Origin: a virus
IMG/VR virus record: IMGVR_UViG_3300025133_000255
Location: 1-40,975 of that record
Direction: 5' to 3' (one strand)
Length of the DNA stretch: 40,975 nt
The position numbers and the translations under genes were made by a program. The notes beneath the pieces are model-generated. The model was not told the DNA's origin, did not search any database, and worked only from the letters and a program-made list of their open reading frames with translations. Within the stretch, counting starts at the first letter, position 1. Each line of letters begins with the position of its first letter. This document shows positions 3,282-40,975 of the stretch, one piece after another.

Positions 3282-4277
3282 CTATTCCGTTTCGGGTTCG
3301 GTGTCAAGGTCGACCAGGATGTCGCGGGCCCCGCCTTCCGGTCCTGGGGGCGACACGATCTTCCGTTCTTCCAGGACGTCCATGACGCGACAAGCGGCCG
3401 CGAATCCGATCTTCAGGCGACGCTGGATCGACGATGTCGACGCCCGCTTCGTTTCCTTCAGGACCTGGATCGCCGTTTCGACGTGACCTTCGTCGACGTC
3501 TTCCGGCTTCGTGGTTGCCCCTTCAGGCTTCCCGGACGGTTCCGCGGGTGTTTGGGTGTCCGTGTCCCCGTTCGCCCCGTCATCGCCATCCTGGACCCCT
3601 TCCTGACCGTCCTGGGCGTGAAGTTCCGGGAACAGTGTCAGTTCGCGGGCCCGTTCTTCCGATCGGATCGCCCGTTCGTTCGCGATCGTCCCGGTGTCCT
3701 TCCGGATTTCAGTGACGATTCCTTTGTCGAAGTCCGTGATCTGATCGCAATCGACAGACCGGACTTCGTATCCGGCCCGAAGGCGTTCCGATTCGGCTTC
3801 GATCGTGGATTCCGCGGCCTGGACTTCGGACTGGATCTTCTTCTTCACCGTGTCCAGATCCGACTTCCGGGCCTGGATCGTCGCCATCGCGTCCGCGATC
3901 TTGTCCCCGGCTTCCAGGCGTTCGTCCGTCGTCAGTTCGACGCGAAGGGGATTCGTGACCCGCTTCTTTTCGATCGCCCGTTTCCGGATCCGCCCGACCG
4001 GGACGTCGACCAGGACGTCGGCCTGGGCCGTGACGACGCGACGATCGCCTTCCGGCGTGACTTCTTCGACGTCCAGGACATCCAGGGTCCCCCGGATGAT
4101 CTTCGCGACGATCGACAGGCCGTCCGCGACTTTCCCCAGGACCTGGGCCCCTTCGACGATGACGCCTATCCATCGGGCCCCGTCGTCCCCCATGACGGAC
4201 ACTTCGGTCGCCCGCGGGTGTTCAGTGTTCCAGGCTTCCGCCTGGGCCTTCGCTTCGCTCTTTTTCAGGTTTCCCAT
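3282..4277 (-). CDS. Coiled-coil phage protein with C-terminal FtsK-gamma DNA-binding domain
   Basis: 331 residues from the ATG at 4277, preceded by CACACGAAAGGGGGG. Residues about 115-225 form a long helical segment (ARKSDLDTVKKK, AESERLRAGYEVRSVDCD, NERAIRSEERA), like a common phage protein family found beside recombinases. An acidic low-complexity linker of about 35 residues follows. The last 65 residues match the FtsK gamma winged helix closely: KRASTSSIQRRLKIGF, VLEERKIVSPPG, GGARDILV. In FtsK this domain reads the octamer GGGNAGGG and activates XerCD. There is no motor domain, so the gene supplies only the DNA reader. A role in directing recombination or in using host XerCD or FtsK is inference. 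Confidence 0.7.
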   Translation of the reverse strand: MGNLKKSEAKAQAEAWNTEHPRATEVSVMGDDGARWIGVIVEGAQVLGKVADGLSIVAKIIRGTLDVLDVEEVTPEGDRRVVTAQADVLVDVPVGRIRKRAIEKKRVTNPLRVELTTDERLEAGDKIADAMATIQARKSDLDTVKKKIQSEVQAAESTIEAESERLRAGYEVRSVDCDQITDFDKGIVTEIRKDTGTIANERAIRSEERARELTLFPELHAQDGQEGVQDGDDGANGDTDTQTPAEPSGKPEGATTKPEDVDEGHVETAIQVLKETKRASTSSIQRRLKIGFAAACRVMDVLEERKIVSPPGPEGGARDILVDLDTEPETE

Positions 4278-4312
4278 GATAGGGTCCCCCCTTTCGTGTG
4301 TTGTGGTGTTGT

Positions 4313-4341
4313 GGGGCCCCCAGGCGAATCCCAGGGGCCCC
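4313..4341 (-). terminator. GC-rich stem-loop downstream of annealing-type gene
   Basis: GGGGCCCC is repeated in inverted order around a 13-base loop, directly after the stop of the gene at 4352 and before the next leader. No U-run follows on the transcribed strand. It belongs to a set of GC hairpins that punctuate the early operons (5715, 9570, 10295, 11551). Confidence 0.5.
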
Positions 4342-4351
4342 GTGTGAATGA

Positions 4352-5341
4352 TTACCAGGGAAGATCTTCCCCACCATCGGCCGGGGGCGTCCCGTCCGGG
4401 GGCGGACCATCCTGGGGGGCTTCCTGGGCCGGGGCCGGATCCGCGGCCTGGGATCCGACGACGGATTCGAAGGTCTTCTTCACTTGTTCGAAGGTGATCT
4501 TCAGACCGTTCGCGGAAATGCCCTTGATCGATCGCCATCCCTTGAATTTGTCGGACGTGGTGATCGTCTGACAAACCGCGTCGGCCGTCGTCGGTTGCGG
4601 AAGGCCTTCGCGGGTGAATCCGGCTTGAAGAAGGGCCTGACACATTCGGGCGATTTCGCCCTTCTGATCAGACTGTTCCCCGTTGTCCGTGTTCCCCCCC
4701 TGGGATCCCTTCTGGAACGTGTGTCCCTTCATGGATCCGGCGTTCTTCCCGACGCGGTTCATTTCTTCTTCGTTCGAATCGCCCGACAGGCCCAGAAGGG
4801 CCAGGATCCCTTTCTTCCGACATTCGGTCGCGGCCATCTGACGGATGAATCGTTCGTCGACTTCGGACACGTCCAGCTTCCCACCGCGGGAAAGGAATTT
4901 GTCCCGCGAAGACGCGGCCCCAGAACATTCGATCGATACCATCCCAGGGATCGACGCGATTCCGAAACATTCATAAACATAGTACGGCCCGACGTCGTCC
5001 TGGTAGTTGACCCGTGTGAACAAGGGTCGACCGTCCGGGTCCTTCAGATAGGCGAAGGACGCCCCGATCGTCGCGGCGACGACGTCCGAATAGTTCTTAT
5101 TCCGTCGGATCGTCATTCCCTTCCCAGGGTCTTCGAAACGATCGAAACAGTCCGGACTGACGCGGTGATCGATGACCGCTTTGATCCGGTCAAGAAGCTG
5201 GACGCGGGTGTCGACGGCCGCTTCCATTTCCTTCAGGTGTGCAAGGGACAACGCGGTCGATCCGGTTGTCGTGAGTGATCCCCCGTCGCGTTCCGCGGGA
5301 AGGATTTCGGGGACGTGTGCCCCGTCGTTCGGTGTGGTCAT
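4352..5341 (-). CDS. Putative single-strand annealing/recombination protein
   Basis: 329 residues. The core (about 70-190) holds DVVAATIGASFAYLKDPDG, a YECFG strand, and FIRQMAATECRKKGILALLGL, a helix pattern seen in phage annealing and ssDNA-binding proteins that lie next to exonucleases. From about residue 275 the protein becomes Pro, Gly and Asp rich and ends GGEDLPW, much like the acidic-hydrophobic tip of SSB proteins. It lies between the Rad50-like ATPase and the FtsK-gamma and Cas4-like genes, which supports a recombination role. The exact fold family (RecT, Erf, Rad52 or other) is not clear from reading. It is the first gene after the candidate promoter at 5428..5456. Confidence 0.55.
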   Translation of the reverse strand: MTTPNDGAHVPEILPAERDGGSLTTTGSTALSLAHLKEMEAAVDTRVQLLDRIKAVIDHRVSPDCFDRFEDPGKGMTIRRNKNYSDVVAATIGASFAYLKDPDGRPLFTRVNYQDDVGPYYVYECFGIASIPGMVSIECSGAASSRDKFLSRGGKLDVSEVDERFIRQMAATECRKKGILALLGLSGDSNEEEMNRVGKNAGSMKGHTFQKGSQGGNTDNGEQSDQKGEIARMCQALLQAGFTREGLPQPTTADAVCQTITTSDKFKGWRSIKGISANGLKITFEQVKKTFESVVGSQAADPAPAQEAPQDGPPPDGTPPADGGEDLPW

Positions 5342-12333: not shown

Positions 12334-12972
12334 TCAGGCGATCGTCGGGGGCGTCAGGGCCGGATCCCCGATCTGGATCAGGTGTTTCGTCCCAGGCGTC
12401 AGGAAGTGCCCGCAATAGATAGGCGACGACATTCCCAGGACGGCCAGGAATAGACCTTCAGGCGTGAAGGCCTTCGGGGCGTCGATCGGAATCTGGGGGA
12501 TCCGGCCCGCCAGGATCCCGACGGCCGTTTCGTTGCAAGTAAAACGATCCGGATCGTCCAGGCGGAAGATGAAGTCCGCGAATTTCGATTTCCCGAAGTA
12601 TCGTCCCCAGATCAGATAAAGGATCAGAAGTCGCTTGTCGTATCCTTTCCCGTGGAAGGCTTCCGCGGCCGTCCAGATCGCCCCCAGGGCGTCTTCGTCC
12701 AGGGGAAGGACATATTCGATCAGGCGAAGGACACGATCGTCCTGAAGGGCCGTCTGAAGGTGTTTGAAGGGTGACGTCGTGACGCCTTTATCGAACAGGG
12801 CTTCGACGATCATGTCCGGGCCGTTGTGGAAGATGAAATGAAGAAGGACGTGATTGATCATCGACGGGATCCGGTTTCCAGATTCGTCGCGGGCGTAGTC
12901 CAGGGCCCGGATCCGCTTCGACAGTTTCGCGGTCCCGGCCGTCCATCCCAGGCGGACTTCCTTCACGATCAT
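12334..12972 (-). CDS. Permuted papain-like (NlpC/P60, YiiX-type) cysteine hydrolase
   Basis: 212 residues. The order of motifs is that of circularly permuted NlpC/P60 enzymes: MINHVLLHF with the catalytic His near residue 40, then MIVEALFDKGV, and late in the protein RFTCNETAVGILAG with the catalytic Cys. LLILYLIWGRYFG lies between. Such enzymes cut amide or ester bonds in peptidoglycan or lipids. It follows the tail genes and overlaps the transglutaminase-like gene by 4 bases, which fits a wall-degrading or lysis role, but no lysozyme or conventional endolysin is present to compare. Catalysis is inferred from motifs. It is the last gene before promoter P12. Confidence 0.55.
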   Translation of the reverse strand: MIVKEVRLGWTAGTAKLSKRIRALDYARDESGNRIPSMINHVLLHFIFHNGPDMIVEALFDKGVTTSPFKHLQTALQDDRVLRLIEYVLPLDEDALGAIWTAAEAFHGKGYDKRLLILYLIWGRYFGKSKFADFIFRLDDPDRFTCNETAVGILAGRIPQIPIDAPKAFTPEGLFLAVLGMSSPIYCGHFLTPGTKHLIQIGDPALTPPTIA

Positions 12973-13679
12973 CCTTCGACCCTTTCAGCTTTCCGGATCC
13001 GCCCCTTCAGACTGACCGCGGATTCGTGTGTCCAGGCGTGAAGGTGATTGAATGAAAACCAGACCCGATCCCCGGCGAAGTATTCGTCCCGACCCTTCAG
13101 GGGGATCTTGTTCGGGACCTGGACGTCCGCGTCCGGATAATAGCACCAGTCCAGGGCGACCCAGGCGTCATCCGATTCCCGGCGATATGTCGCCCAGGCG
13201 TGACCCCCGGCCGCGGCCCCCCGGCCAGGGTCGACCCATCCGGCCGCGACGCGGATCCGGTCCGCGGGGATCCCCAGGGCCAGACAAAGGGAAACGGTCA
13301 GGATCGCCCCATCTTCACAATCCCCGCGACGACGCTTCAGGGTTTCGGCCGGGAACAACCAGAATTCCCCGCGGTCCGGGGAAAGGTCTTCGTCCCCGAC
13401 ATAGACGATATTCTGAACGACCCATTTCTGAATCATCCAGGCGACGATGTCCGGGCCCGACGCTTCGCGGGCCGCTTCCATCCAGGGATCCCCGGATCTG
13501 GAAAAGGCGTCCAGGATGACGTCCGGGGCCCAGATGAATCTTCGGACGTCGACGGGATACTGGATCCGGGTCCCTGGGATCGATCGCCCTTCGTATATGA
13601 TCGGGGCCTTCGGGTGTTTCGTGTCCCAGTATTCGGCCGGGATAGTTTCCGGATCCGGGCTTTTGCGGAATTCAGTCAT
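12969..13679 (-). CDS. Transglutaminase-like cysteine protein
   Basis: 236 residues from the ATG at 13679. The triad appears in family order: RRGDCEDGAIL (Cys), AAGGHAWATY (His) and VALDW (Asp), with hydrophobic spacing typical of bacterial transglutaminase-like cysteine proteins. The N-terminal 110 residues include YPVDVRRFIWAPDV. Its start overlaps the TGA of the membrane protein gene. Similar proteins occur beside tail genes in phages and may act on the envelope or mature virion proteins. It may form a functional pair with the papain-like protein downstream. Confidence 0.7.
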   Translation of the reverse strand: MTEFRKSPDPETIPAEYWDTKHPKAPIIYEGRSIPGTRIQYPVDVRRFIWAPDVILDAFSRSGDPWMEAAREASGPDIVAWMIQKWVVQNIVYVGDEDLSPDRGEFWLFPAETLKRRRGDCEDGAILTVSLCLALGIPADRIRVAAGWVDPGRGAAAGGHAWATYRRESDDAWVALDWCYYPDADVQVPNKIPLKGRDEYFAGDRVWFSFNHLHAWTHESAVSLKGRIRKAERVEG

Positions 13680-14050
13680 CAGAATAGATCCTTCACGTCC
13701 AGGCCGTTGATCTTCAGAAGGACGATCGACAGGAAGATCAGGGCCGTCGCCAGGGGGGCGTGATCGGCCAGACCCCAGGCCCAATCCGTGAAGGTCCGGG
13801 GATGACGGGATCCGCGGCGTTCGACCAGGATACACAATCCGGCCGCGGTCGTTTCGTGGATTTCCAGAAGGGCTTCCCAGGCGTCCCGGATACCCATCGC
13901 CGGACAGTCCGCGAAGTCGTTCGAATCGATGATATGTTTCGCCCGCTTCAGGCGATTCTTCACACGGTCGATCGTGAAGTTCCCCAGGGCTTCCGCGAAG
14001 GTGTCGTCGTGTTCATGTCCTGGGGCCATGATGATCGCTTCCTGGGACAT
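13679..14050 (-). CDS. Membrane protein, possible holin-like component
   Basis: 123 residues from the ATG at 14050 (GGGGGACCT just upstream; a later ATG at 14029 is possible). A soluble helical part (DRVKNRLKRAKHIIDSND, IRDAWEALLEIHE) is followed by one strong transmembrane helix near the C-terminus (about 99-113, PLATALIFLSIVLLKI). Position after the tail genes and before two hydrolases fits a lysis module, but a single C-terminal helix is unusual for a holin. A C-tail-anchored spanin or scaffold is an alternative. Confidence 0.5.
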   Translation of the reverse strand: MSQEAIIMAPGHEHDDTFAEALGNFTIDRVKNRLKRAKHIIDSNDFADCPAMGIRDAWEALLEIHETTAAGLCILVERRGSRHPRTFTDWAWGLADHAPLATALIFLSIVLLKINGLDVKDLF

Positions 14051-14062
14051 AGGTCCCCCGGT

Positions 14063-14104
14063 AAAACGCGGACCCTGTCATCGATGACGACGGGGCCCCG
14101 TTTT
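14063..14104 (-). terminator. Stem-loop with U-tract after the beta-helix gene
   Basis: The arms AAAACG-GG-CCC and GGG-CC-CGTTTT pair with bulges, and the loop contains the perfect palindrome GTCATCGATGAC (14077..14088). The minus-strand RNA ends the stem in a short U-run (UUUU). It lies 11 bases after the stop at 14115 and before the leader of the next gene, so it is the best candidate for a late-transcript terminator. Confidence 0.6.
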
Positions 14105-14114
14105 GTTTCAGTTT

Positions 14115-15410
14115 CTACGGACGTGTGAATTCAGTCGCGGTTGTCCACGTCCCGGACACGCGAACTTGAATCACGAAGTTCGAGTTCACGACGCCGATTC
14201 GCCAATTGTCGTTCGCGTCTTTCCCTTCGCCCCATTCCCGGAACGAAGCGAGATCCCCGAGTTCGTCGTCTTCGTTGACGAGCGTCCCGTCGGCGAAGTA
14301 GCAATTCTTCACGGTTCCGTCAAGTTGGGTTGCGGTGATAGGCGAGCATCTTGTAAAGACCGCGCCGGAATCGACTGTCGATCCGAAGCTACCCGCGCTC
14401 CCGCCGTCACAGTCGATAAAGGTTCCGCTTGCTGTGCCGGAGTTTCCGAAACTGTAGGCGTCGACGATGCACCGAATAAATACACCGCTTGCGTCCTGAC
14501 CCGACCAGTCGGAAGCGAAGCAATAATTCCCACCTACGCAATCGGTGAAGTTTCCGTTTGCTACGCTGTTATTCCCACCAGAGCCGAAGCACTCGCCACC
14601 CCCACTAGTGTTGCACCGAATAAAGTCCCCGCTTGCAATGGCACCATTACCAGCACCGAAGGATTTGGTCCCACCTACGCAATCGGTAAAGGTTCCGCTT
14701 GCAATACTGTTGGTTGTGATATTCTGGCCCCCTGCAAAGCTCCATCCGCCACCGTCTACCCGTGTATAGGTTCCCGCATATTCAATTCCAATACGCATCG
14801 GAATACCATAGCCCATTGACGTGTTTCCTAGGCAAATAACGTCAGACATTACCGTATTTGTCAAAGCCGTTGCCGGAAAGTAGGCGGCTGGATCTGGGTT
14901 CTGCATAGTCGGGCTAACCGACGAAACGATTTCCATCGTCAGGAAGCCGATCTTCACGTCGTCGGCCGTTTGTTCGACCGTGCCGCGTGAAGCGACCGTG
15001 ATCGCGGACGTTAAGACGACGTCTTCACGGTTGCCCGTCATTCCTACCAGATCGACGAATTCGGTGTCCAGTTCCAGACCGTGATTCGATCCGTCGCCTG
15101 TCCCGAAGTCGTAGCGTCCGGCCGGGATATATACGACGGCGCGATTGTCTGCCGCCAATGCGTTCCCGCCGGGAGTCAAAGCGGCCGCGGCCGTGTATGC
15201 TGTTCGAAGATTCGCGGCCGACAGAATATCGTTCGTCCCACGCTGGACCGTGACCATCGAATCGGGAGCGTAGTAACCACTCCCCCCGGCCGTCGTCTGT
15301 TCCGTGTCGTCCCCGAAAATGATCTTGTCGGACTTGACCCCGGCGAAAGCGTGGTTCGTGAATAGTGCGATCGCGATGACCGCGGCGAATACTGTGAATG
15401 ACTTCTTCAT
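14115..15410 (-). CDS. Exported beta-helix tail appendage/receptor-binding protein
   Basis: 431 residues with a clear Sec signal peptide (MKKSFTVFAAVIAIALFTNHAFA, cut after residue 23). Residues 60-220 resemble the start of a right-handed beta-helix (PAGRYDFGTGDG). Residues about 236-365 are six repeats of roughly 22 residues with the pattern SGxFxxC...SFG, which would stack cysteines and phenylalanines in columns. The last 30 residues (NWRIG, IQVRVSGTWT, EFTRP) resemble the C-terminus of the upstream gene, suggesting a shared attachment or trimer unit. The gene holds about 10 of the genome's rare GAG/CTC trinucleotides and more TAC/GCA-type triplets, so it looks recently acquired. Export is surprising for a virion protein. 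Alternatively it is a cargo protein. Confidence 0.65.
   Translation of the reverse strand: MKKSFTVFAAVIAIALFTNHAFAGVKSDKIIFGDDTEQTTAGGSGYYAPDSMVTVQRGTNDILSAANLRTAYTAAAALTPGGNALAADNRAVVYIPAGRYDFGTGDGSNHGLELDTEFVDLVGMTGNREDVVLTSAITVASRGTVEQTADDVKIGFLTMEIVSSVSPTMQNPDPAAYFPATALTNTVMSDVICLGNTSMGYGIPMRIGIEYAGTYTRVDGGGWSFAGGQNITTNSIASGTFTDCVGGTKSFGAGNGAIASGDFIRCNTSGGGECFGSGGNNSVANGNFTDCVGGNYCFASDWSGQDASGVFIRCIVDAYSFGNSGTASGTFIDCDGGSAGSFGSTVDSGAVFTRCSPITATQLDGTVKNCYFADGTLVNEDDELGDLASFREWGEGKDANDNWRIGVVNSNFVIQVRVSGTWTTATEFTRP
14529..14687. repeat. Intragenic direct repeats in the beta-helix gene
   Basis: The 18-mer CCCACCTACGCAATCGGT occurs at 14529..14546 and 14670..14687, each followed by a near-identical AAG-TTCCG-TTGC stretch. 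Coils of the helix have duplicated recently at the DNA level, and repeat number may vary between strains. Confidence 0.75.
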
Positions 15411-15455
15411 CCTGTCCCCCTTCTATGTTACCCCCCGCGACATACAGGGGAAATT

Positions 15456-16175
15456 CTATGGTCGCAAAAACTGAACACTGTTCGACCAGGATCCGCCCAG
15501 GCGGACCTGAATATGGATGTTCGTCGTCGTGGGATCCCATCCCAGACGCCAGGACTGATCCGTCGATTCGTTCCCGTGAAGATAGGCCCAGGCGTCGACG
15601 TGTTCGGTTTCCGGATCCCCGTCCTGTTTCGCGTCCCAGGACGCGATGTCCCCCGCGTCAATTCCGGCCGCGGCCGACGCCCCGAAGATAGGATCCGATT
15701 CCGCCCCGCCCCCGGTCAGGTCCAGGCCGATCCCGCCATATAGCAAGGGGGGGACATAATCCAGGAATAGACGTCCGGGCCCGAAGCGATAGATCTTCCC
15801 CAGGTCATTCGTGACGACGACCTGGGCGATGAATTGTCCATTCGTCGCGGTCTTCGCGACGTCGAAAGCATAGTCGACCCAGTTCGATCCGGCCGCGGAC
15901 GACGTGACTTCGACCCAGTTCGTCGCGGCCCAGTCTTCGCCATAATAGAAGAATTTCCCGCCCCAGGTCCCGTTCGTCATTGACGCCCAGGATTCCCCGT
16001 CGGCCAGGGTGTAAAGGCGGACGGTCGGGGTCGATCCCGCGGCGTCCCGCATATAGAATTCCCTTTGCGGGTTCAGGACGTCCCCATAGATGACGTGTGC
16101 GGGGACGGATTCATCCTGGGCGTGTCCGGATCCGGCGATCATCAGGATCGCGATCGCGTGAAGAAGTCTTTTCAT
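15456..16175 (-). CDS. Exported tail-appendage protein with shared C-terminal module
   Basis: 239 residues from the ATG at 16175; an in-frame ATG at 16193 would only lengthen the n-region. Residues 1-19 form a Sec signal peptide ending SGHAQ. The body is beta-rich (FFYYGEDWAATNWVEV, FIAQVVVTNDLGKIYRFG) with a Gly-rich stretch GGGAESDPIFGASAAAG. The end (SWRLGWDP, NIHIQVRLGGSWS, QFLRP) matches the end of the beta-helix protein. Position after tape measure and tail-tip genes suggests a fibre or baseplate accessory, but no family was recognised and the signal peptide is unexpected. Confidence 0.6.
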   Translation of the reverse strand: MKRLLHAIAILMIAGSGHAQDESVPAHVIYGDVLNPQREFYMRDAAGSTPTVRLYTLADGESWASMTNGTWGGKFFYYGEDWAATNWVEVTSSAAGSNWVDYAFDVAKTATNGQFIAQVVVTNDLGKIYRFGPGRLFLDYVPPLLYGGIGLDLTGGGAESDPIFGASAAAGIDAGDIASWDAKQDGDPETEHVDAWAYLHGNESTDQSWRLGWDPTTTNIHIQVRLGGSWSNSVQFLRP

Positions 16176-16209
16176 CGTGCTTTTCCTTTTCATCCCCGGC
16201 CCTTTCATT

Positions 16210-16230
16210 GACGGCCAGGATTTCCGATCA
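16210..16230 (-). promoter_or_regulatory. Intercistronic leader element, copy 1
   Basis: Minus strand TGATCGGAAATCCTGGCCGTC between the stop of the 856-residue gene and the next ribosome site. The same core recurs at 23637, 35130 and, less exactly, 24724 and 33554. All copies lie in the late region, close to the GAAAGG ribosome site of the next gene. Confidence 0.55.
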
Positions 16231-18798
16231 TTTGAATTCGAAGTCGGTCCATTTGACGACGGCCTTCGGGCTTCGGATCGCGAAGCCTTTCGACGTGTCC
16301 CCGATATCCCATTCCCCGGCGAAAGGCCCATTCGTGTGCATCCCCCAGTCCCAGGCGACCCAGGAATTCGTCCCGCGGTCCAGGGAAACAAGTCGCGTCA
16401 TATTCGAATGGGTCAGGCTTTCCAGATCCGTCTGGGCGTCCGGGACGGTCCAGACGTGGGGCGGATCGTTCGTCGCCAGATAGTCCGGGTTCAGTTCGTA
16501 AAGCTGATTTAATGAGGCCGACGAATAGTCCCAGGACTTCAGGACGCCCGTCGGATACATTCGCCAGGGTTCCAGGGACATCGGATCCCAGGTCCAAGTC
16601 GTATATTTCCCGACCGCGTAAAGGTCGACCGTCTTGTCGAAGTTCGTGACCCCGTCTTCGTTGAACATGAATCCGATCGGCCAGTTTATCGCCAGACCAT
16701 AGACGTCGGCCCCGACATATTCACATGACAGAATTTCGACTTTGATTTCGGCTTCCCCTTCCCCGGAATCGGTCGTCGCCAGGACCTTGACCTTCAGATC
16801 GTCCGGGTCGTCGCACATCACGCGATTCGTCGCGGTCAGGGTGTCCCCGATATCCGTGAATTGATCCTGGACTATGATGTCATAATATCCGGTGACTTCA
16901 TGGAACGTGACCCAGGGATCCGCGGATCCGGAATCCGGCCGGGACACGAAGGTCGCCTTCGCGACGACGTCGAAAGTGTAAGACCAGGGATCGTTCACAT
17001 ATTTCCATCGCGTGAATTCGATATCTTCGAAGGTCGGTTCAAACCAGACTTCATCGTCCCCGTTCCAGGGGTCAGGACTGTCCCCGACCGTGTCCGTTTC
17101 CGAATAGGCCGAATCGTATCCGGACGGTTCGTCCGCGGTTTCCCAGGACGCCCCGATCTGATCCCGTTCCCAATGCCAGGGGGATCCGGGCGGGGGATAC
17201 CAGTACGACGTGACGGGGTTCGACGATCCGCCCCAGTATCCCCAGGCGGAAACGGTCCCTGAATTCGTCTTCATCGCGTAGACTTCCGGGATGTCGGACC
17301 AGGGCGAATCCCCAGGGCGGACGATCCCGGCCGTCTTGTGTGTCCAGTTCATCGCCTTCAGGGCCGCGACACGTTCGTCGACGTCCTGGGCGTATAGGCG
17401 GAAGGGTTGATCCCCGAAAAGGCCGACAGGGCCGTCCCAGGCGACCGTGATGACGTCCCCAGTCATTCCCGCGGGATTCGTGGGGGCGATAATGCCGGGA
17501 AGGTTCAACCAGGACTTATTCGTCCCTTCCAGATCATACCAGGTAAGGGACAGGTTCGTCGTCCCTTCGTATAGGCCCAGGGCGTTCGTTTCCATCATGT
17601 CCCCGGTGACGGTGACGGTTTCCGACGTGAAGACCAGGGACTGATCTTCCTGGTCGATGATCCATCCGATCAGTTCGACGTCCCCGGAAAGGCCGTCGTT
17701 CGTGTAGGACAAGAAACGAAGCTTCGGAAGTTCGGCCGAATAGAATTTCCGATCGAAGGTCCCCAGGTCGCGGTGACGCCAGTCGTTCGTCGGGCCGCGG
17801 GAAATGTGATCGGCCAGGACGACGGTCTGGGTCGTTTCCGGTTGCCGCGTCCAGTAAAAATCCCCGCCCGTGACGAAGTCGATCGCGTTCGTTTCCGGAT
17901 CGAAGGAATATCCCGTCCGGTTCGTGACGTATCCGATCCCCAGGCGATCGCCCAGGCCCGCCATCGAATTGACCGGAAGCGTCAAAAGAAGGTTTGTCGA
18001 ATCGACGACCGGGGGATCCCCGGCGAAGGTGTGATAGGTGTTTGTGAACCAGGAATCGAAGGACCCGTCCGGATCCGCTTCGTTCGTCGCGACCGTGTAT
18101 CCGGCCAGGGTCGCGATCTTCGAATCCATCGCGGCCAGGAAGGCCCGCGTGACCAGGGGATAGGCCGTCCGCGTGACGTCGTCCGAATCCTGATAGGTGA
18201 AGGGCCCGATCGCGTTCGTCGTCGTGACGTTCGTCCAGGCGGGGACGTCGAAGGTCCATTCATAGGGATAGATCCCCCCGATAGGTTCCGCCCCTTCATA
18301 GGCCGTTCCGACCCCGGTGACGCCATTCGACGGGACGCCCGAATAGTAGATGATCGAATCGTCCCAGTCGTCGATCCAGGCCGTGTCAGGTGTTTCCGGA
18401 TCCCCGTCATCCCAAAACCACAAAGCCAGATCGACCCACCATTCCGAATCATCGTCCCCATATTTCAACCAGAAGGACGGGGCCGTCGGGTCCTGGACAT
18501 AGAATCCATTCACGTCCGCGGATCCGAATCCGAAGGCGACAAGGCCGTTTGTCGTGACTTCGACCGGGACGTCGGGACAGGTCCATTCCTGGACGACGTT
18601 CGGGGGCGTGACGTCCCAGGCTTCGCATCGTTCGACGATCGCGGAATATATCTGTCCGGCGAAATGATTTTGTTCCGACATCTGATAGGCTGACGGACTG
18701 GAATTCGTGAAGGGATATCCAGACCAGTCCGCCCAGGCGTCAGGCGATAGGTGTATCCAGATTAACGTCGCCAATATTGCAAGCCCGCGATAGGACAT
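16228..18798 (-). CDS. Large exported protein, putative tail-tip/adhesion protein
   Basis: 856 residues. The ATG at 18798 (GGGGGAACCT upstream) opens a signal peptide of about 23 residues ending DAWA. The mature part is rich in Trp, Tyr, Asp, Asn and Thr, with repeated short beta motifs (WKYVNDPWSYTFDVVAKATF, DKTVDLYAVGKYTTWTW) and very few Lys, typical of extracellular beta-sandwich proteins. No catalytic motif is seen. Its start overlaps the upstream gene by 59 bases. Its place at the end of the tail cluster suggests host contact. The Asn/Thr/Trp-rich style resembles surface proteins of some Verrucomicrobiota-Kiritimatiellota relatives, a weak impression and not evidence of host. Confidence 0.55.
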   Translation of the reverse strand: MSYRGLAILATLIWIHLSPDAWADWSGYPFTNSSPSAYQMSEQNHFAGQIYSAIVERCEAWDVTPPNVVQEWTCPDVPVEVTTNGLVAFGFGSADVNGFYVQDPTAPSFWLKYGDDDSEWWVDLALWFWDDGDPETPDTAWIDDWDDSIIYYSGVPSNGVTGVGTAYEGAEPIGGIYPYEWTFDVPAWTNVTTTNAIGPFTYQDSDDVTRTAYPLVTRAFLAAMDSKIATLAGYTVATNEADPDGSFDSWFTNTYHTFAGDPPVVDSTNLLLTLPVNSMAGLGDRLGIGYVTNRTGYSFDPETNAIDFVTGGDFYWTRQPETTQTVVLADHISRGPTNDWRHRDLGTFDRKFYSAELPKLRFLSYTNDGLSGDVELIGWIIDQEDQSLVFTSETVTVTGDMMETNALGLYEGTTNLSLTWYDLEGTNKSWLNLPGIIAPTNPAGMTGDVITVAWDGPVGLFGDQPFRLYAQDVDERVAALKAMNWTHKTAGIVRPGDSPWSDIPEVYAMKTNSGTVSAWGYWGGSSNPVTSYWYPPPGSPWHWERDQIGASWETADEPSGYDSAYSETDTVGDSPDPWNGDDEVWFEPTFEDIEFTRWKYVNDPWSYTFDVVAKATFVSRPDSGSADPWVTFHEVTGYYDIIVQDQFTDIGDTLTATNRVMCDDPDDLKVKVLATTDSGEGEAEIKVEILSCEYVGADVYGLAINWPIGFMFNEDGVTNFDKTVDLYAVGKYTTWTWDPMSLEPWRMYPTGVLKSWDYSSASLNQLYELNPDYLATNDPPHVWTVPDAQTDLESLTHSNMTRLVSLDRGTNSWVAWDWGMHTNGPFAGEWDIGDTSKGFAIRSPKAVVKWTDFEFK

Positions 18799-19249
18799 AG
18801 GTTCCCCCAGGGTTTCGGATGAATTGGAAAAGCGGGATCCGAAGATAGATCGTGTCCGATTCCGGTTCCATCGCTTGAAATGTGACGGCCGTCGTCGTGT
18901 GATCCCGTTTGTGTTTCAGATAGACCCAGGCTTCCGCCCCTTCCAGATCCAGGTCGTCCTGGTCGACGTGATAGTTTCCGATTCCGTGGATCCGAAGCGT
19001 CCCCGCATAGATCCGGACAGTGTCCGCGGCGATCAGGCTGAAACCGAAGGCCATATCCGTCCAGGGGAACGCGGCCCCCCCGGCGTCGATCTGGATCCCG
19101 GCCGCGGTCCATCGGACGGTCGTTCCGTTTGCCCCGTGCATCATAGACAGGGCCCGGACGATCGTGTTCATATCGCGGGCCGATAGTGACGCGTTCCTTC
19201 GATATTGTTGGGCCAGTTGACGGCCCAGTCCTGAATCGGCCCGCGGCAT
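18740..19249 (-). CDS. Minor tail protein, 169 residues
   Basis: The ATG at 19249 is chosen because the upstream gene stops at 19252 and GGGGATG serves as ribosome site; longer in-frame starts would overlap that gene entirely. The N-terminal helix ADSGLGRQLAQQYRRNASL precedes beta-rich segments (TTVRWTAAGIQIDAGG, TVRIYAGTLRIHGIGNYHV, EAWVYLKHKRDHTTTAV). This resembles small tail-tip or fibre-base proteins. Function is inferred from position between tape measure and appendage genes. Confidence 0.5.
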   Translation of the reverse strand: MPRADSGLGRQLAQQYRRNASLSARDMNTIVRALSMMHGANGTTVRWTAAGIQIDAGGAAFPWTDMAFGFSLIAADTVRIYAGTLRIHGIGNYHVDQDDLDLEGAEAWVYLKHKRDHTTTAVTFQAMEPESDTIYLRIPLFQFIRNPGGTYVLSRACNIGDVNLDTPIA

Positions 19250-19251
19250 GG

Positions 19252-19602
19252 TTAGACATCCCCCCATCCGTCCGGGGCGTCTTCCCAGGGGCCATAATAT
19301 TCCCAGACCTGTTCCCGGATGACATAGTCCCCAGGCGTCCCAGGTTGTTCCGGTGACGTCCCGTCCCTGACGCAAATATATTTCGCCCCGCCATTTCCGA
19401 CGATCGTCTTCTGATAGGCCTGATTTCCGACCCAATACTGGACGCTTTGGGAAGTGTCCCCGACGTCAGACTGGGCGACCGCGGCCGACGCCAGGACTTT
19501 CTTGTATCGGGAAAAGACCTTGTGATGACGGATCTGGACTTCGCCCCCGATTTCCGACGTGTCCAGATTGTCCGACCAGTCGCCTAACATCCATGAATTC
19601 AT
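19252..19602 (-). CDS. Minor tail protein, 116 residues
   Basis: It starts MNSWMLGDWSDNLD, contains QIRHHKVFSRYKKVLASAAV and ends in the acidic-aromatic EYYGPWEDAPDGWGDV. Unknown family. The start overlaps the tape measure stop by 4 bases, so it is translationally coupled to it. Position suggests a distal tail component. Confidence 0.5.
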   Translation of the reverse strand: MNSWMLGDWSDNLDTSEIGGEVQIRHHKVFSRYKKVLASAAVAQSDVGDTSQSVQYWVGNQAYQKTIVGNGGAKYICVRDGTSPEQPGTPGDYVIREQVWEYYGPWEDAPDGWGDV

Positions 19603-21761
19603 GGGTTCATCCCGCCTTTCCCTTCAATCTTGTCCAAGACCTTCTTCACGTCCTTCAGAATGACGACCTGTTCTTCCTGGGGATCCTTCTTTCCGGATCC
19701 CTGTCCGTGGATCCGCGTGAAGATGTCGCCCAGGCCGATCGACGATCGCCCCTTCTGACCCTTCTTCGCGATCGCGTTCTGGATCCCCTGAAGGTTTTCC
19801 ATTTCCGCCTGGATCTTCCCGGCCAGATCGATCTTCTTTTCCGGATCCGTTTCCTTCGCGTGTTTCCCTTTCAGGTCGTCCAGATTCTTCTGGGTCGCGT
19901 CCCGGCGTTTTTCCGGTGTCATCAGGGACAGGGCGAAGCGGCGTTTCCGTTCTTCCAGGGATTCCTTCTTCGACTTGACCCGATCGGCCTTCGCTTCCTG
20001 TTCGGACGCGATCTTCTTCCCTTCGGATCCCATCAGTTTCGTCATTCGCTTCCAGTCTGCGACAGACTTCGGATCGTGTCCCAGTTCTTTCCGGGCCCGC
20101 CCGAAGGCTTCCTTCCCGTTGTCCCCCTGGAAAAGCTTCTTCGCTTCGGCCTTCAGCTTTTTGATGTTGTCCAGTTCCTGGGCGTCCAGATCCGCCTTCG
20201 CGTCCGCGGCCAGTTTTTCCGCGGCGATCCGGTCCTTCATGAATTGATCATATTCGGCCCGGAAGGATCCGGCCCCGGTGTCCGCCCCCCAGGTCGATTC
20301 CATCCCGTCGACCATCTTTTCGAAGGCCTTGATCAAAGCGGGTTGATCCTTTTCGTCCGCGTTCCGGATCTGTTTCTTCGCGGCGTCGATCTTCCCCATC
20401 CGGTTCTTCATCGCGGTATCGCGGGCCGTCGCCTGGATGTCTTCGAATGACTTCGCCCCCAGGGACGCCAGGGCTTTCTTCCCCCGTTCGAATTGTTCCT
20501 GGGGCGACGTGTTCCGACTAATGATCCGGGCCGCGGCCCGACTTCCGGCGTCCGCCTTCATTTGAAGGATTTCGTCGCGACGCTTCTTCCGTTCCGCGGC
20601 CTGTTCTTTGTTCATCAGGGTCATCGGTAACGCTTCCTGGGCCGCGTTGATCAGGCCGTCGGATCGCATCGACGCCAGGGCTTCCTTGTCGGCCGCGTAG
20701 AATTCTTTCGGATCCATCGCGGCCTTCGCGGCCTTCCCGATCAGTCGTCCGATCGTCCCGGACGCTTTGACCAGGATTTCCGCGGCCTTCTGGGCCCCCA
20801 TGCGAAGGGCCCCGATCAGGATGTCCCCCAGGGCCCCCAGGGCCTTCGTTCGACCTTCCCCCCCGCCCGCGATAGCCTTCGCGACTTCCGCGGCCAGGGA
20901 CAGGGCTTCGCGGGCCTTCGTCGCCCAGGCTTCGATCGATCCGTCGGACCGTAGCTTTTGAAGCCATTCGATCATCCGGATCAGGGCCCCCTTCGCGTCT
21001 TCGACGAAGACGTTTCCGAAGTCGGCCAGGGCCAGACCCAGGTTGTCCTTCAGGGTCGACACAAGGCCTTCCCCGGTCCGGGACGCTTCAGCCATTCCGC
21101 CTTCGAATTTCCGAAGGTCCCCGGTCAGGATCGCGAAGACGTCGGCCGCGGATCCGCCCGACTTCTGAAGATCTTCCATCGCGTTCCGGCCCTTCGCGGA
21201 CAGGACGCCCATTTCCTGAAGTCGCATCGCCGCTTCCCCGAAGGGACGGCCCGCCTTGATCATGGAATAGGCCCGCCCGACCCACATAGCGACGGACGAA
21301 AGGTCTTGTCCGACGGCCGCGGCCGCGTCCCCGACCATGCGAAGCGATTCGACGCCCCCCATGACGGATTCGGTGAAGACGTAAAGGGACCGGGAAGCTT
21401 CGACGATCCCCCCGATCTGGAAAGGCGTCCGGGCCGCGAAGTCCTGAAGGTCTTTCAGGTGTGCCTGGGCTTTCGCCATATCCCGGAAAAGGATCTTAAA
21501 CTGGACTGTATAGCGTTCGAAGGTGAAGGCCTTCTTCAGCGTGACGGCCAGGGCCCCCGCGGCCAGGGCGACGCCCGCGGCTACTTTGATGAAGGTCGTC
21601 CGGACGGATCCCCAGACTTTCCCCAGGCCCCGCCCGACGGCCGTCAGGCGATCCGCGGTCCGCTTCAGGCCCGACAGTTCAGCCTTCGCGGCCATCGCGC
21701 CACGTCGGACCATATTCGCGGCCCAGATCTTGAATTCTAAAACCCTATTTCCGGACGGCAT
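19599..21761 (-). CDS. Tail tape measure protein
   Basis: 720 residues. After a basic start there is a hydrophobic helix at about 57-75 (FIKVAAGVALAAGALAVTL). Residues about 75-200 match the conserved N-terminal domain of tape measure proteins (FERYTVQFKILFRDM, DLQDFAARTPFQIGGIVEAS). More hydrophobic Ala/Gly helices follow (about 285-345) and the remainder is long charged helix, rich in Lys, Ala and Glu. Length implies a tail of roughly 110 nm if 0.15 nm per residue applies. It overlaps the upstream gene by 17 bases. The function is to set tail length and help DNA entry. Confidence 0.88.
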   Translation of the reverse strand: MPSGNRVLEFKIWAANMVRRGAMAAKAELSGLKRTADRLTAVGRGLGKVWGSVRTTFIKVAAGVALAAGALAVTLKKAFTFERYTVQFKILFRDMAKAQAHLKDLQDFAARTPFQIGGIVEASRSLYVFTESVMGGVESLRMVGDAAAAVGQDLSSVAMWVGRAYSMIKAGRPFGEAAMRLQEMGVLSAKGRNAMEDLQKSGGSAADVFAILTGDLRKFEGGMAEASRTGEGLVSTLKDNLGLALADFGNVFVEDAKGALIRMIEWLQKLRSDGSIEAWATKAREALSLAAEVAKAIAGGGEGRTKALGALGDILIGALRMGAQKAAEILVKASGTIGRLIGKAAKAAMDPKEFYAADKEALASMRSDGLINAAQEALPMTLMNKEQAAERKKRRDEILQMKADAGSRAAARIISRNTSPQEQFERGKKALASLGAKSFEDIQATARDTAMKNRMGKIDAAKKQIRNADEKDQPALIKAFEKMVDGMESTWGADTGAGSFRAEYDQFMKDRIAAEKLAADAKADLDAQELDNIKKLKAEAKKLFQGDNGKEAFGRARKELGHDPKSVADWKRMTKLMGSEGKKIASEQEAKADRVKSKKESLEERKRRFALSLMTPEKRRDATQKNLDDLKGKHAKETDPEKKIDLAGKIQAEMENLQGIQNAIAKKGQKGRSSIGLGDIFTRIHGQGSGKKDPQEEQVVILKDVKKVLDKIEGKGGMNP

Positions 21762-26273: not shown

Positions 26274-26627
26274 TCAGGCGGGAAGGTGTCCGTTCCGTTC
26301 CAGAATCGCCCGCGCATTTGTTCGACCGTAGCGTCGCCCCCTTTTCGTGTCAAGGAAGGCTTTCCAGGCGTTCAGTTCGTGACACTCCGGATCCCCGTGT
26401 TCGATCGGCCTGATCGTGAAGTCCCCGATCTTCCAGGGTCCGGATCCGGAAAGCTTCCCTGGGACGTCGTGAACGGGATTCCATCCGATCGCCGCTTCGT
26501 GATGGACGTCCAGGAAGACCAGTCCGTCGGGCGTCTTGAATGTATAGGCCATGATTCGGCCCGCGGCTTCCCCAGGGCCGCGGATCGTCAGATCGATGTC
26601 GGCCGCGATTGCTTCCCAGATTGTCAT
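26274..26627 (-). CDS. Hypothetical 117-residue protein
   Basis: Contains ADIDLTIRGPGEAAGRIMAYTF, then FLDVHHEAAIGWNPVHD and a basic C-terminus DTKRGRRYGRTNARAILER. Not recognised. Its ATG shares a base with the stop of the MuF gene, so it may be translated with it and could be a partner or immunity-like protein for the toxin-like domains; that is inference. Confidence 0.5.
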   Translation of the reverse strand: MTIWEAIAADIDLTIRGPGEAAGRIMAYTFKTPDGLVFLDVHHEAAIGWNPVHDVPGKLSGSGPWKIGDFTIRPIEHGDPECHELNAWKAFLDTKRGRRYGRTNARAILERNGHLPA

Positions 26628-29600
26628 CAGTATCCCCCCACGATCTGAATCACGTCGTCGACCGTCCGACCGGATCCATCCGGCCAGGGGTCCGTCGCGT
26701 TCCAGTTGTGTTTTTTGAAGACGGCCAGGGCCTTCTTCTTTTCGGCCGCGTCCCGGACCCCGAAGAAGTCCAGTTCGTCGAAGATGGAAATGGAATTCTT
26801 GAAGTTCGTTTCATTCCCCCCGCCAGACGATCGTCGCCAGTCGGACAGGGAAGGGATCCGGTTCGTGAAGATGTCTTCGATCCCGTCCTTCGTTCGCCCG
26901 TAGCGGTCCCCAGGATATCGAAGGGCGTCGACCCGTCGGAAGTGCGTCGCCTTCCAGGTGATCCCCCGCGTCCGGGTTGCCGATTCGCGGATCCGGCCGA
27001 AGACGAAATTCGCCCCGCCCGATCGCATATCCGGGGCCGGGGATCCACCGTCGGCCGAAGGCGGGATCCCGCGACGAAGTCGGTCCGTGGTTGACGCCAT
27101 ATGTCCCCCGGAATTCAGGATCCGGTCCAGTTTTTCCAGTTGATTCCCGCCCCCATATTCCAGGTCGTGATATAGGCGATATCCCTTTTCGAAGTCGTCC
27201 CAATCTTTCCCGAATAGGTCCGCCCGTTCCCGGACGTTGATTCCATGTCCGAAGTGTTGAAGCTTCCCTTCCGGCCGATAGATCGGGCTTTTCGTGATGT
27301 CTTTTTTGAAATAGGTATTCAGCCAGTCCTGGGCCGCTTTGATCTTGTCGGCCTGGGCGTCGCCCGCGGCCGCGACGACCCTTTCGAAGTCCCTGAATTC
27401 GGAAAGATGTCGCGTCCCGTTGTGCGCGATTTGTCGAAGATATAATTCTTCCATATCCCCGGCCCGCGCCCGGACGGAATCCAGGCCCAGGTCCCCCATC
27501 GTTTTCCGGATCCGTTCCGCGGACGCCAGATCCTGACCCTGGGAAATGATTTCGACGCGGCCCCTTTGAGCATAGGCCCCATTTCCAGGCCAGATCCGGA
27601 CGATGACCCCGTCCCCGGCGTCGGCTTCATAGAACGGGAATTCATCATCGAAGGATCCCATCCCGCCTTTCCCAGTGACGCGGGGGAAACCCTTGTCGGT
27701 CGTCTTCGTTTCGTATAGACCTTCTTTCCTGAAGGTCAGTTTTCCCGGTTCCCGCTTGATCGGTTTCAGCTTCAGATCCCCGAAGGCGTTCTTCGTGAAC
27801 CATTCGCCCTTCGTCGCGGCCAGGGAAGCTTTCGTCCCTTCCCCTTTTTGGACGATTGCTTCGACACGTTCGACCCAGGGCTTGAAGGCTTTCTGGAATC
27901 GCGTCAGTTCCGTCTTCGCGACCTTCCCGTCCGCGACCAGGGACCGAAGTGTCGTCATCCGATCCCCAAACATCGCCCGGACTTCGCGGGCCCGTTCCAG
28001 ATCCTTCGCCCGAAGAAGGCCGTCCCCGGATCCGGTCTTCAGGTCCAGTTCCAGACGGCCGATCCCCTTCAGGGTTTCTTCGATCTTGTTGTCCAGGGTC
28101 CCGACATCGATGTCCGGAAGCTTCGCGGCCTTCGCCCCCAGAAGGTCGTCCAGTTTGTCCAGGGCCTTCCCGTGTGCCTTGAACGTCGCGGCCATGACGG
28201 GGCGATTCGCCGCGTCGACTTCCATCCAGAAATGGACGTTTTGATCTTCGATGTCGGCTTTGTCGATCCGGACCGTGACCCCGTTCTGACGTGCGTCTTT
28301 GATCATCGCGATTTCATTGTTCGTCAGGGATTCGGAAAGGGAAGCGTCGGCCGCTTTCGTGACCTGGGCCTGGGCCTTTTCTTTGACGGCCTTCTTTCCC
28401 AGGTAGCGTTCCGTCAGGAATTTCTTCCGGGCCAGAAGTGTCTTTTCCAGATCGTCGATCGTGACGTCATCCCATCCCGTCGCTTCCAGGATCGCCCGGA
28501 TGTCTTTTTTCGGGGCCAGTTTCCGAAGCTGAAGGACGGCCTTTCGGATGTCTTCATCCGTGACGTGTTGGAACAGTTGGGCCGTCTGGGGATTCATCCC
28601 GGATCGAAAGCTTTCCAGTTCCTGGACGACGCGACCCCAGTCCTTCCCCTTCAATTCCCCCATTGCCCGATATTTCAGGGATCCACCTTGATCGATTCGA
28701 AGGATCGACTTCTTCACGCCTGGGGTCAGAAGGACATTGTCCCAGTCGGCCCCCGCGACGTCCCAGTTTGCAAGCCAGGAATCCGCCACGAATCCCCGGC
28801 GAAGGGTCAGGGTTTCGGACGCGAAGTCGACATATTTGGACCGCATTTCGACGACCCCGTCGACCCGCTTCGAACAGAAGACCAGATCCCCGTCGACGCG
28901 GCCGATCCGGCCCGTCGGGACCTTCACGCCAAGTTGATCATAAAGGCGATTCGCGGCCCATTCGCTTCGGACCCGATCAGGGTCGCCCCGGTAGGACTTG
29001 ACGATCCATTCCTGACCCGTCGGGTCTTTCATGACGATCGACCCCTGGGATCCCCCGACGGTCTTGTTCGTCTTCGTCAGAAGGGTCCCGAATTCATCGG
29101 CCCCGCCCATCCCCATCGTTTCCAGGTCTTCCGCGTTCAGGACATCGTCCAGGCGGGCCGCTTTTGCCGCTTCCTGGGCTTTCTTTGCTTCGGCCAAGGC
29201 CTTCGCCTTCGCGGCCGCTTCGGCCGCTTCCTGGGCTTCTTGGGCCGCTTTCAGTTCGGCCGCTTCTTTCGCGGCCTGTTCCTTCGCTTCCTGGATCGCT
29301 TTCGCCTTCGCGGCCGCTTTCTTCTTCGCCGCGGTCAGGTCCAGCTTCGGAAGCGGGGGGGCGACCTTCGGGAAGGCCTTCTTCTGGAAAGCGTCCCAGT
29401 CCCCAGGGGAAGACTTCTTCCCTTTGTCTTTCATGTCGCCCAGGGACGCCTTCGCGGGTTTCGCCCCCTTCTTCTTCGTGATATTCGCCTTGTATTTGTC
29501 GACCGCGTCCGGGTCATTCCAGTCGACGTTCTTCGTTTTCTTCTGACGTTCGATGTCGGCCGCGTGGACCGTTTCGTCGATCCGGGAACATAGGCAATCA

Positions 29601-30975: not shown

Positions 30976-31113
30976 TTATTCCGCCAGACAGACGTCCGCG
31001 GCGTTGATGTCGTGAAGTTCTTTCGGTTCGGTCTTCCAGGCCACACTGACCAGGACAGATCCGACGACCAGGATCCCGGCCGTGATTGCCTTCAGTGTTC
31101 GGATCTTTGTCAT
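30976..31113 (-). CDS. Single-pass membrane peptide, 45 residues
   Basis: ATG at 31113 after GGAAGCGGGGAAGCG. A basic start MTKIRTLKAIT is followed by a hydrophobic helix AGILVVGSVLVSVAW (12-26) and an acidic tail ending CLAE. It looks like a small inner-membrane or signal-anchor peptide. It is too short for standard gene calling. It lies between the hairpin at 31137 and the 44-residue gene. Confidence 0.55.
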   Translation of the reverse strand: MTKIRTLKAITAGILVVGSVLVSVAWKTEPKELHDINAADVCLAE

Positions 31114-31668: not shown

Positions 31669-32739
31669 TTAACCGTTTGTAACCAGGGACGCGATCCGGA
31701 CGTTCTTCCGTTCGAAGACGCGGTCCCAGTTCGCGGCCAGGGCCAGATTCGCGTTCGACGGGTTCCGGGGTGACGTATTGCTGACCGTGGTGTCGGTCCA
31801 CTTCACGCCCCGCGGGTGAAGGATCATGTGACGACGGGTGATCAGGTACGTTTCCGAAGCCAGACCGTCGCGATCGGTTTCGACCGCTTCGCCCGCGTCC
31901 AGGGTCTTGTCGCCCCGTGCGATCGCGCCACGTCCAAACAGATAAGACGTGTATTTCGTCCCGGACGTCGCCCCGGCGACGGTCGGACAGTTGTCGTTCA
32001 CGATCAGGGAAAGCCCCATGAAGGTCCGCTTCACGATCGTCCCGGTCGAATCGCGTTCGTATTCGATCAGGTCGTTCTTCGCCAGGGTCGATTCGACCAG
32101 GGAATGGATCGCCATCGCGGTCAGTTTGTCCTTGTTGTCGCCCATCGTCTGGGCGGCATCGATGACGGCCGATCCGCTGATCAGGTTCGCGGCCGTTCCG
32201 GCCCCGACGTAATCTTCCGACGCGATGTCCGAAGTCATATCGCCCGAATCGTTCGCGGCGTTGTCCGCGAAGACGCCCGCCAGGACGTTGATCAGGATTT
32301 GCTGTTCCCGGCGATCCCACCAGGACGCGACCAGATCCGCGATTTCCTTCGCGGGATCGCTTCCGGCCAGATACTTCGCCAGATCGTTGACGCCCCAGGC
32401 CTTCCCGCGGATCAGCTTCGTCGCCATATCCTGGGAAGCGTCGATCGCCGCGGGTGTCAGATCCGCGTCGTCCTGAAGTGCTTCTTCTTCACCGTCCAGG
32501 TCAGTCCAGAACGGAAGATCGATCAGGCGTCCGCCTTCGTTGATAAGACGGTTGATTTCCGGATCCGATTCGACGATCCCCATCCCGATCAGGGACGAAA
32601 GTTCGGCCGTCCGTTCCGTCATATACGGGGCCCAGACTTCGGGCTGAATGACATCGGAAACCTTCGTCGATGTCGCGACTACGCCCAGGACTGAAAACAG
32701 TCCAAAGACGCCCAGAATTGAAAACAATGATTCGAACAT
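31669..32739 (-). CDS. Major capsid protein (HK97-like fold) with hydrophobic N-terminal extension
   Basis: 356 residues. From residue 24 the protein is a recognisable phage major capsid type: TSTKVSDVIQPEVWAPYMTERTAELSSLI, EGGRLIDLPFWTDLDGEEE, KLIRGKAWGVNDLAKYLAGSDP, WWDRREQQILINVLAGVF. Before it stands MFESLFSILGVFGLFSVLGVVA, a hydrophobic stretch like a signal peptide with a VVA cut site. Codons there are unusually AT-rich and contain an internal repeat (TTTTCA-T-CTGGGCGT twice). No ATG, GTG or TTG occurs at the usual start, and GAAGGGATAGGGTT supports the upstream ATG at 32739. Cleavage or membrane contact is unproven. Confidence 0.85.
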   Translation of the reverse strand: MFESLFSILGVFGLFSVLGVVATSTKVSDVIQPEVWAPYMTERTAELSSLIGMGIVESDPEINRLINEGGRLIDLPFWTDLDGEEEALQDDADLTPAAIDASQDMATKLIRGKAWGVNDLAKYLAGSDPAKEIADLVASWWDRREQQILINVLAGVFADNAANDSGDMTSDIASEDYVGAGTAANLISGSAVIDAAQTMGDNKDKLTAMAIHSLVESTLAKNDLIEYERDSTGTIVKRTFMGLSLIVNDNCPTVAGATSGTKYTSYLFGRGAIARGDKTLDAGEAVETDRDGLASETYLITRRHMILHPRGVKWTDTTVSNTSPRNPSNANLALAANWDRVFERKNVRIASLVTNG

Positions 32740-40269: not shown

Positions 40270-40517
40270 CGGAAGTTCCCCCTGGGCGGGACGACGATCG
40301 GCCCGCGGTTCGGATCGTCGAAGATCCCCGCCTTTTCAAACAGGGCTTTGACGACCCGCATCGTCTGATCGGCTTTCGCGTGAAGGGAAGGCGTCGCCCC
40401 GATCGCCCCCAGTTTGACTTCGCCCGTCGCGGGATTCATCGCGATCGTGACCAGGACCGGGATCCCGTGTTTCTCTGCTATCATCTTCAGATCTTGCGTC
40501 GCTTCTGACAAGGCCAT
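40266..40517 (-). CDS. Hypothetical 83-residue protein
   Basis: ATG at 40517 sharing a base with the upstream stop, with GAAAGGGGGGCCTG before it. MALSEATQDLKMIAEKHGI, then VLVTIAMNPATGEVKLGAIG and RVVKALFEKAGIFDD. Not recognised. The start of the left-end counterpart (Met-Pro-Leu, bases 9-1) belongs to the same gene in variant form. Confidence 0.6.
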   Translation of the reverse strand: MALSEATQDLKMIAEKHGIPVLVTIAMNPATGEVKLGAIGATPSLHAKADQTMRVVKALFEKAGIFDDPNRGPIVVPPRGNFR

Positions 40518-40975
40518 CAGGCCCCCCTTTCGTGTTCCGTGTTTTTCCGCGTCCCCAGGAAGATCCGAAGTCCGACATCGAAGTCCATCATGTCCGAATC
40601 TTCTTCCCCACATTTCCAGCATTGATCTATCGGTTCGACATCATCCCGGCCGTCGCTTCGATAGGTGTGAAGCCAGTCCCGGCCCCGACGGATGTCCAGA
40701 CAGTTCGAACAGATCTTCGGTTTCGGATTCGACCTTCGGCCCCGGATCGCTTTTCGGATTCGGTTTCGGGAAATGGATTCCTTCAGATCGCGACCGAATA
40801 GGATCCAGGATCCAGTGATCGACAGGAAGGTCCATTTCGCCTTCAGGATCCCCAGGTTCATCCAGAAGCGTCCAGAAACCCTTCCCCCCCCTGTAGTCCC
40901 CCCCCTTCCCTTTTTGGATCCAGGGCGGACGACGTCCTTCGATCCGCAAGTCTGACAACCGTCTTCGAAGTCATA
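40517..40975 (-). CDS. Zinc-ribbon protein, right allele (5' end cut by the window)
   Basis: 153 codons are open up to the window edge and correspond to residues 86-238 of the left-end gene. Cysteine pairs CQTC, CSNC and CWKC are kept; many third positions and some residues differ (KASIWSKR against KESISRNR). The true start lies outside the right edge or, on a circular map, at position 725. Same Gly linker and G-tract (40879..40910). Differences are mostly silent or conservative, so both versions are under selection as working genes. Confidence 0.85.
   Translation of the reverse strand, partial: YDFEDGCQTCGSKDVVRPGSKKGRGGTTGGGRVSGRFWMNLGILKAKWTFLSITGSWILFGRDLKESISRNRIRKAIRGRRSNPKPKICSNCLDIRRGRDWLHTYRSDGRDDVEPIDQCWKCGEEDSDMMDFDVGLRIFLGTRKNTEHERGA
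40879..40910 (-). other. G-quadruplex/mirror-repeat tract, right copy
   Basis: Identical to 371..402, inside the 100-base identical block of the terminal repeats. Confidence 0.6.

Follow-up and report, generated by a model that had tools for sequence, protein, structure and literature searches.

The window analysed here, a 40,975-base IMG/VR virus record (IMGVR_UViG_3300025133_000255), carries on its minus strand a gene order of the siphophage type. Intact, conserved Sec-type signal peptides stand at the head of three consecutive genes in its tail module, which encode proteins of 856, 239 and 431 amino acids (aa) and in which conserved N-terminal modules are joined to variable C-terminal ones. 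These genes may specify receptor-binding-type tail appendages that are exported via Sec late in infection and join the virion outside the cytoplasm, an explanation to which we give an even chance. The three genes are:

16228..18798, minus strand: 856-aa protein, Sec signal MSYRGLAILATLIWIHLSPDAWA with the predicted cut before DWSGYP; in the one relative its N-terminal half is conserved and its C-terminal half has diverged
15456..16175, minus strand: 239-aa protein, Sec signal MKRLLHAIAILMIAGSGHA with the predicted cut before QDESVP, then a predicted BppU-like beta-sandwich domain (28-141)
14115..15410, minus strand: 431-aa protein, Sec signal MKKSFTVFAAVIAIALFTNHAFA with the predicted cut before GVKSDK, then a tail-fibre-like FGDDTEQTT and a Cys-rich repeat region

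Signal peptides were scored by a rule-based scan that combines n-region charge, the hydrophobic core and the -3/-1 rule. On a segment of E. coli DNA it found all four exported controls (ybgS, modA, ybhC and ybhG) and gave cytosolic proteins scores of 1.3 or less; two inner-membrane proteins also scored high, so the scan alone cannot separate cleaved signals from membrane anchors. An earlier note on this DNA had claimed Sec signals for the 856-, 239- and 431-aa proteins, and the scan bears this out: they alone among 44 gene calls score as such (3.59, 3.88 and 4.45, respectively), the next best reaching 1.58. Each has a positive n-region, a short core and small -3/-1 residues within about 18-30 aa, which is the full Sec pattern. 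Random N-termini drawn from the composition of each protein reached a score of 2.5 in 0.3-1.0% of cases and matched the protein's own score in no more than 0.035%. The cuts are predicted between DAWA and DW (856 aa), SGHA and QD (239 aa) and NHAFA and GV (431 aa). The first and last agree with the signal ends named before, and the remaining one, given as SGHAQ, was off by one residue, the likely junction lying between GHA and QDE.

A Shine-Dalgarno-like site precedes each of the three named starts. In the 239-aa gene, in-frame ATGs lie at 16208, 16193 and 16175, and the signal is kept from all three. In the 856-aa gene no start codon is shared with the relative described below from Met1 to the conserved GYPF..SAY block, so that its signal cannot be removed by a downstream start. 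Starts lying beyond the hydrophobic segments, which the earlier note had named as grounds for abandoning its claim, now look very improbable.

Conservation in a relative and the mature proteins

Scans of viral contigs with the three proteins or their alignments returned a single match, the full-length relative IMGVR_UViG_3300035698_006555 (G001, with its loci given as L003). It is 39.5 kb long, and its TerL is 82% identical to that of the window. The homologue of the 856-aa protein spans the ends of the record, and a 127-base end repeat allows it to be read as one 812-aa protein. This is 42% identical overall and carries the signal MQYRGFAMWATLTWTLLSGNAQA, with the predicted cut before GFVGYP and both AxA alanines in the same columns as in the 856-aa protein. 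The counterpart of the 239-aa protein is a 572-aa protein with the signal MKKRIILYSAMLIGATIAAA and a predicted cut before QDLSVP, in which the junction between A and QD is conserved. Its first 153 residues are 59% identical and the remainder is replaced. Tail fibres are usually made up of a conserved attachment part and an exchangeable receptor part, and the 239- and 572-aa pair shows this arrangement of a conserved N-terminal and a variable C-terminal part within the tail module. The 431-aa gene is absent from the relative, where it is replaced by genes for 206- and 509-aa proteins which have strong signals of their own and no detectable homologue in the window. Retention of the signal in both homologues, at sequence identities of only about 42% and 59%, would support export, as would the signals borne by the replacement genes.

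The 572-aa protein carries the motifs DDDHPQY and GGTTAEYYHFT, and the stretch around the latter is similar to an annotated tail fibre of a Manatee Spring phage (60% across 25 aa; E 6e-3). The phages sharing a GGTTxEYYHxT or DDDHPQY stretch have tail fibres without a signal.

The 239-aa protein has no sequence-level match to the BppU family (PF10651-type) in Pfam, PHROGs or NCBIfam. An AlphaFold2 model built on a two-sequence alignment has an eight-strand core at residues 28-141, with a mean predicted local distance difference test (pLDDT) score of 40 and 50-60 in the core. Foldseek searches of the PDB with this model placed baseplate chains of NF5, 80alpha and the TP901-1-type 4v96 near the top, amid unrelated beta-sandwich proteins, and searches of BFVD returned many BppU-domain proteins; matches to BppU or baseplate chains had a probability of 1.00 and E values of 7e-6 to 1e-3, obtained from a model with a pLDDT of 40. 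Provisionally, the BppU-like fold of the mature domain appears to be more than noise, a low-confidence but consistent result, because two independent libraries agree on one phage family. The protein thus looks like a BppU-type baseplate or tail-fibre component, and weak structural evidence suggests that it has a BppU-like docking domain.

In the 431-aa protein, the signal is followed directly by FGDDTEQTT, which we take to be close to a motif of tail fibres. There are ten cysteines in its 408 mature residues, compared with 0.4% Cys in eleven other structural-region proteins, and a periplasmic stage would allow disulfides to form. Its C-terminus resembles that of the 239-aa protein. No homologue was found in the isolate phage collection or in viral contigs, and an AlphaFold2 model (pLDDT 30) was discarded as unusable.

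The isolate phage collection, searched with the three proteins, the 169-aa protein encoded upstream of them and a 220-aa tail protein, gave no match. Sequence searches of the PDB gave chance-level matches only. Scans of genome contigs with the tape measure and 169-aa proteins found nothing, and for this reason no host is named.

Signal peptides in related phages and in known systems

The same scan applied to annotated genes of lambda, HK97 and T1 returned Lom, Bor, Rz/Rz1-type lysis proteins and Cor, together with a few weak or membrane-protein matches. The sole structural protein was lambda orf-314, at a marginal 2.47. A wider survey drew on 80 loci with related capsid genes, for 20 of which roughly 10-20 kb downstream of the capsid gene was taken. 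In the 314 collinear genes of these 20 contigs there were eight signal matches of at least 150 aa; judged from sequence and position, they look like lysis lipoproteins, spanin-type or other membrane anchors and a tape measure false positive. Successive large tail proteins with signals occurred in none of the 20 contigs.

Signal-bearing virion-type genes are not confined to the tail, as they also occur beside the major capsid gene in two phages. In the relative, 140- and 236-aa proteins with signals (L003 15536-15958 and 16026-16736) are encoded just after the capsid gene, a place where the window has none. In L039, a phage contig of the wider set whose capsid protein is 50% identical, three signal-bearing proteins (454-1296, 1307-1915 and 4120-4647) surround the scaffold and capsid genes. 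Judged by family membership, phage-structural-type proteins occur both with and without a signal. The 236-aa protein of the relative belongs to phrog_11997, whose member in Pseudomonas phage Rollin lies beside a tail fibre gene and lacks a signal; a 202-aa protein of L039 with a signal belongs to phrog_5335, whose member in another contig (G020) adjoins the capsid gene and lacks one. The signal-less relatives that the earlier note had proposed to look for were thus found, for other signal-bearing proteins of virion type. The presence of both kinds of member in the same families makes the idea of export directly testable.

Three known systems offer comparison. The BppU baseplate proteins of Gram-positive siphophages (TP901-1, 80alpha, NF5) share with the 239-aa protein a predicted N-terminal beta-sandwich, a place after the tape measure gene and a variable C-terminal part, but here a Sec signal stands in front, the family match at sequence level is missing, the model is of low confidence and the length of the signal suggests a diderm-type host. 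Lambda Lom, Bor and Cor likewise have a Sec signal and are encoded in or near the late region, with Lom adjoining the tail-fibre genes. They are small host-envelope proteins, whereas the proteins here include the tail cluster's largest and are modular in the manner of receptor-binding proteins. In filamentous phages, pIII and pVIII are virion proteins with Sec signals that are processed by signal peptidase, and the particles assemble at the membrane without lysis. Sec signals are common to both, but the window represents a tailed phage with genes for an SPP1-gp13-like capsid protein and a tape measure. Nothing was found in the open-access literature that describes Sec signals on virion proteins of tailed phages, an absence that is weak evidence; mentions of signal peptides there concerned lipoprotein spanins, a protease name, and software or references.

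Proposed export of tail appendages and competing explanations

If the three proteins are exported, the infected cell would produce them late, each with a Sec signal peptide open to cleavage; they would cross the inner membrane, be trimmed by signal peptidase I, and fold in the periplasm or at the surface of what is probably a diderm-type host, as signal lengths of 19-25 aa suggest. The mature protein would then bind the virion when the particle meets the contents of the envelope, at lysis or at the envelope itself. Among the three readings offered in the earlier note, exported appendages added late fit best with the predicted BppU-like fold, the tail-fibre motifs and the modularity, with virion attachment being something that we infer; the trait extends beyond the tail region to which that note had tied it. 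Should the explanation be right, the ways in which these phages can come by their host range, by disulfide-bonded or glycosylated fibres and by phenotypic mixing would have to be seen differently, and Sec signals on appendages would serve as a simple genomic marker for such systems.

Several points weigh against it. The signal of the 856-aa protein is the weakest of the three (3.59) and that of its homologue scores only 2.62; full-length relatives number one only; the three proteins have no match in Pfam, PHROGs or NCBIfam; and the Foldseek matches of the 239-aa model are indicative only, given its pLDDT of 40. Exported proteins would also have to find tails that were assembled in the cytoplasm.

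The chief competitor, which we consider rather unlikely, is that export takes place but the products remain on the infected cell or in its periplasm and never form part of the virion. They would serve in superinfection exclusion, surface modification or adhesion, with their genes carried moron-like in the late operon, after the manner of lambda Lom. Most of what the scan picked up in lambda and T1 belongs to the host envelope or to lysis (Lom, Bor, Rz/Rz1 and Cor), Lom too sits in a tail-fibre region, and the window and its relative differ in the genes at the 3' end of the cluster. The predicted BppU-like fold and tail-fibre motifs speak for virion parts instead, as does the conservation of two of the three genes, and of their N-terminal part. 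Unlike self-contained morons, the cluster has no promoter-like site on the gene strand (13600-19700), where terminator-like sites also fall below the shuffle mean, an indication that hinges on the sigma factors of the host. Between the tape measure and the putative lysis genes, only the 116- and 169-aa genes are signal-less, and the cluster has no other candidate for a large tail-tip protein. Virion parts are favoured because the promoter-like site is lacking and only these two small genes would otherwise be left for the tail tip.

Another account, which we regard as improbable, holds that Sec does not in practice act on the hydrophobic N-termini, which would serve as membrane-interacting or assembly segments of virion proteins, uncleaved or cut by another protease. 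It takes its model from the major capsid protein, whose N-terminus is extended by 22-27 residues in the four most closely related sequences:

31669..32739 (window), minus strand: extended major capsid protein, its first 22 aa forming the hydrophobic stretch peculiar to this clade; extension MFESLFSILGVFGLFSVLGVVA
13946-15019 (L003, the relative): extended major capsid protein; extension MLNIDVLMGLCGLVGLWGCLGVVA
3554-4597 (L018): extended major capsid protein; extension MNLEALMTIIGILGGFGFLGVV
from 3760 (L019): extended major capsid protein; extension MNELLLAVGSGGGILGGLLFLVPFCLG

The sequence of the extension diverges and its hydrophobicity is kept, the maximum 17-aa hydropathy being 2.1-2.5 in all four. 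No comparable hydrophobic extension was seen in 26 other major capsid proteins inspected, all less than 60% identical, most of which begin at a conserved M(A)xTK. Because the window's capsid gene has no start codon from codon 5 to the conserved core, translation has to include the extension. Without a positive n-region, this is not a standard Sec signal. A hydrophobic segment of the clade that has no positive charge, like the weakly hydrophobic signal of the relative's 856-aa homologue, would suit the account; the charged n-regions, short cores and small -3/-1 residues of the three proteins set them apart from it.

Taken together, the capsid extension and the putatively exported appendages raise the possibility that assembly is associated with the envelope. 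In the usual teaching, tailed phages are assembled in the cytoplasm up to lysis. In this clade, particles might be assembled or finished at the inner membrane, with Sec supplying periplasmic appendages and the hydrophobic extension bringing the capsid protein there, so that maturation would span the envelope; we think this a long shot.

In both phages the 856-aa gene begins within the 169-aa gene, sharing its first 59 bases with the end of that gene; the predicted cleavage site lies outside the overlap. Were the signal a by-product of the conserved 169-aa end, many synonymous recodings of that end should yield one. Signals arose in only 0.7% of open frames for the window and 1.9% for the relative, and the window's own score was reached in 0.013%; the by-product explanation was rejected. 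Apart from this overlap, little favours an artefact in which translation truly begins farther downstream and the signals go untranslated or are a chance reading; the lack of a common downstream start codon, coding conserved upstream of the first internal Met, the recoding test, the Shine-Dalgarno-like sites and the independent signal-bearing replacements in the relative largely refute it, and we rate it very improbable.

Neighbouring genes in the window

In the head part, the minus-strand order runs through TerL (phrog_38), portal (phrog_145), scaffold, major capsid protein (phrog_247, SPP1 gp13-like) and minor head protein. The tail genes and tape measure follow, then the 116-, 169-, 856-, 239- and 431-aa genes, and 3' of the last of these a gene for a small membrane protein and a transglutaminase-fold gene. 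The genes flanking the signal-bearing cluster are:

19599..21761, minus strand: tape measure protein (phrog_973, E 1.5e-18), which marks the tail module
19252..19602, minus strand: 116-aa conserved protein between the tape measure and the signal-bearing genes, no signal
18740..19249, minus strand: 169-aa protein, upstream of the 856-aa gene, whose start its last 59 bases overlap in another frame
13679..14050, minus strand: 123-aa protein, the first after the signal-bearing genes, with a membrane segment at its C-terminus; kept in the relative; holin-like position
12969..13676, minus strand: transglutaminase/papain-fold protein (PF01841, E 2.9e-11), a possible lysis or entry enzyme, at the end of the late operon segment

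The 123-aa protein had no family match. Just downstream of the capsid gene, both phages encode a small conserved membrane-segment protein, of 45 aa in the window (30976-31113, minus strand) and 89 aa in the relative (L003 16861-17130). The minor head protein of the window (1263 aa, 26627-30418, minus strand) has a region weakly resembling HipA-type kinase domains after its head morphogenesis domain (PF07804, E 1.5e-4, below the cut-off), and its counterpart in the relative is 595 aa long with a different C-terminus. At the ends of the record, a zinc-finger-like protein (MNLGILKAKW...) is present in two near-copies, at 9-725 and 40517-40861 (minus strand).

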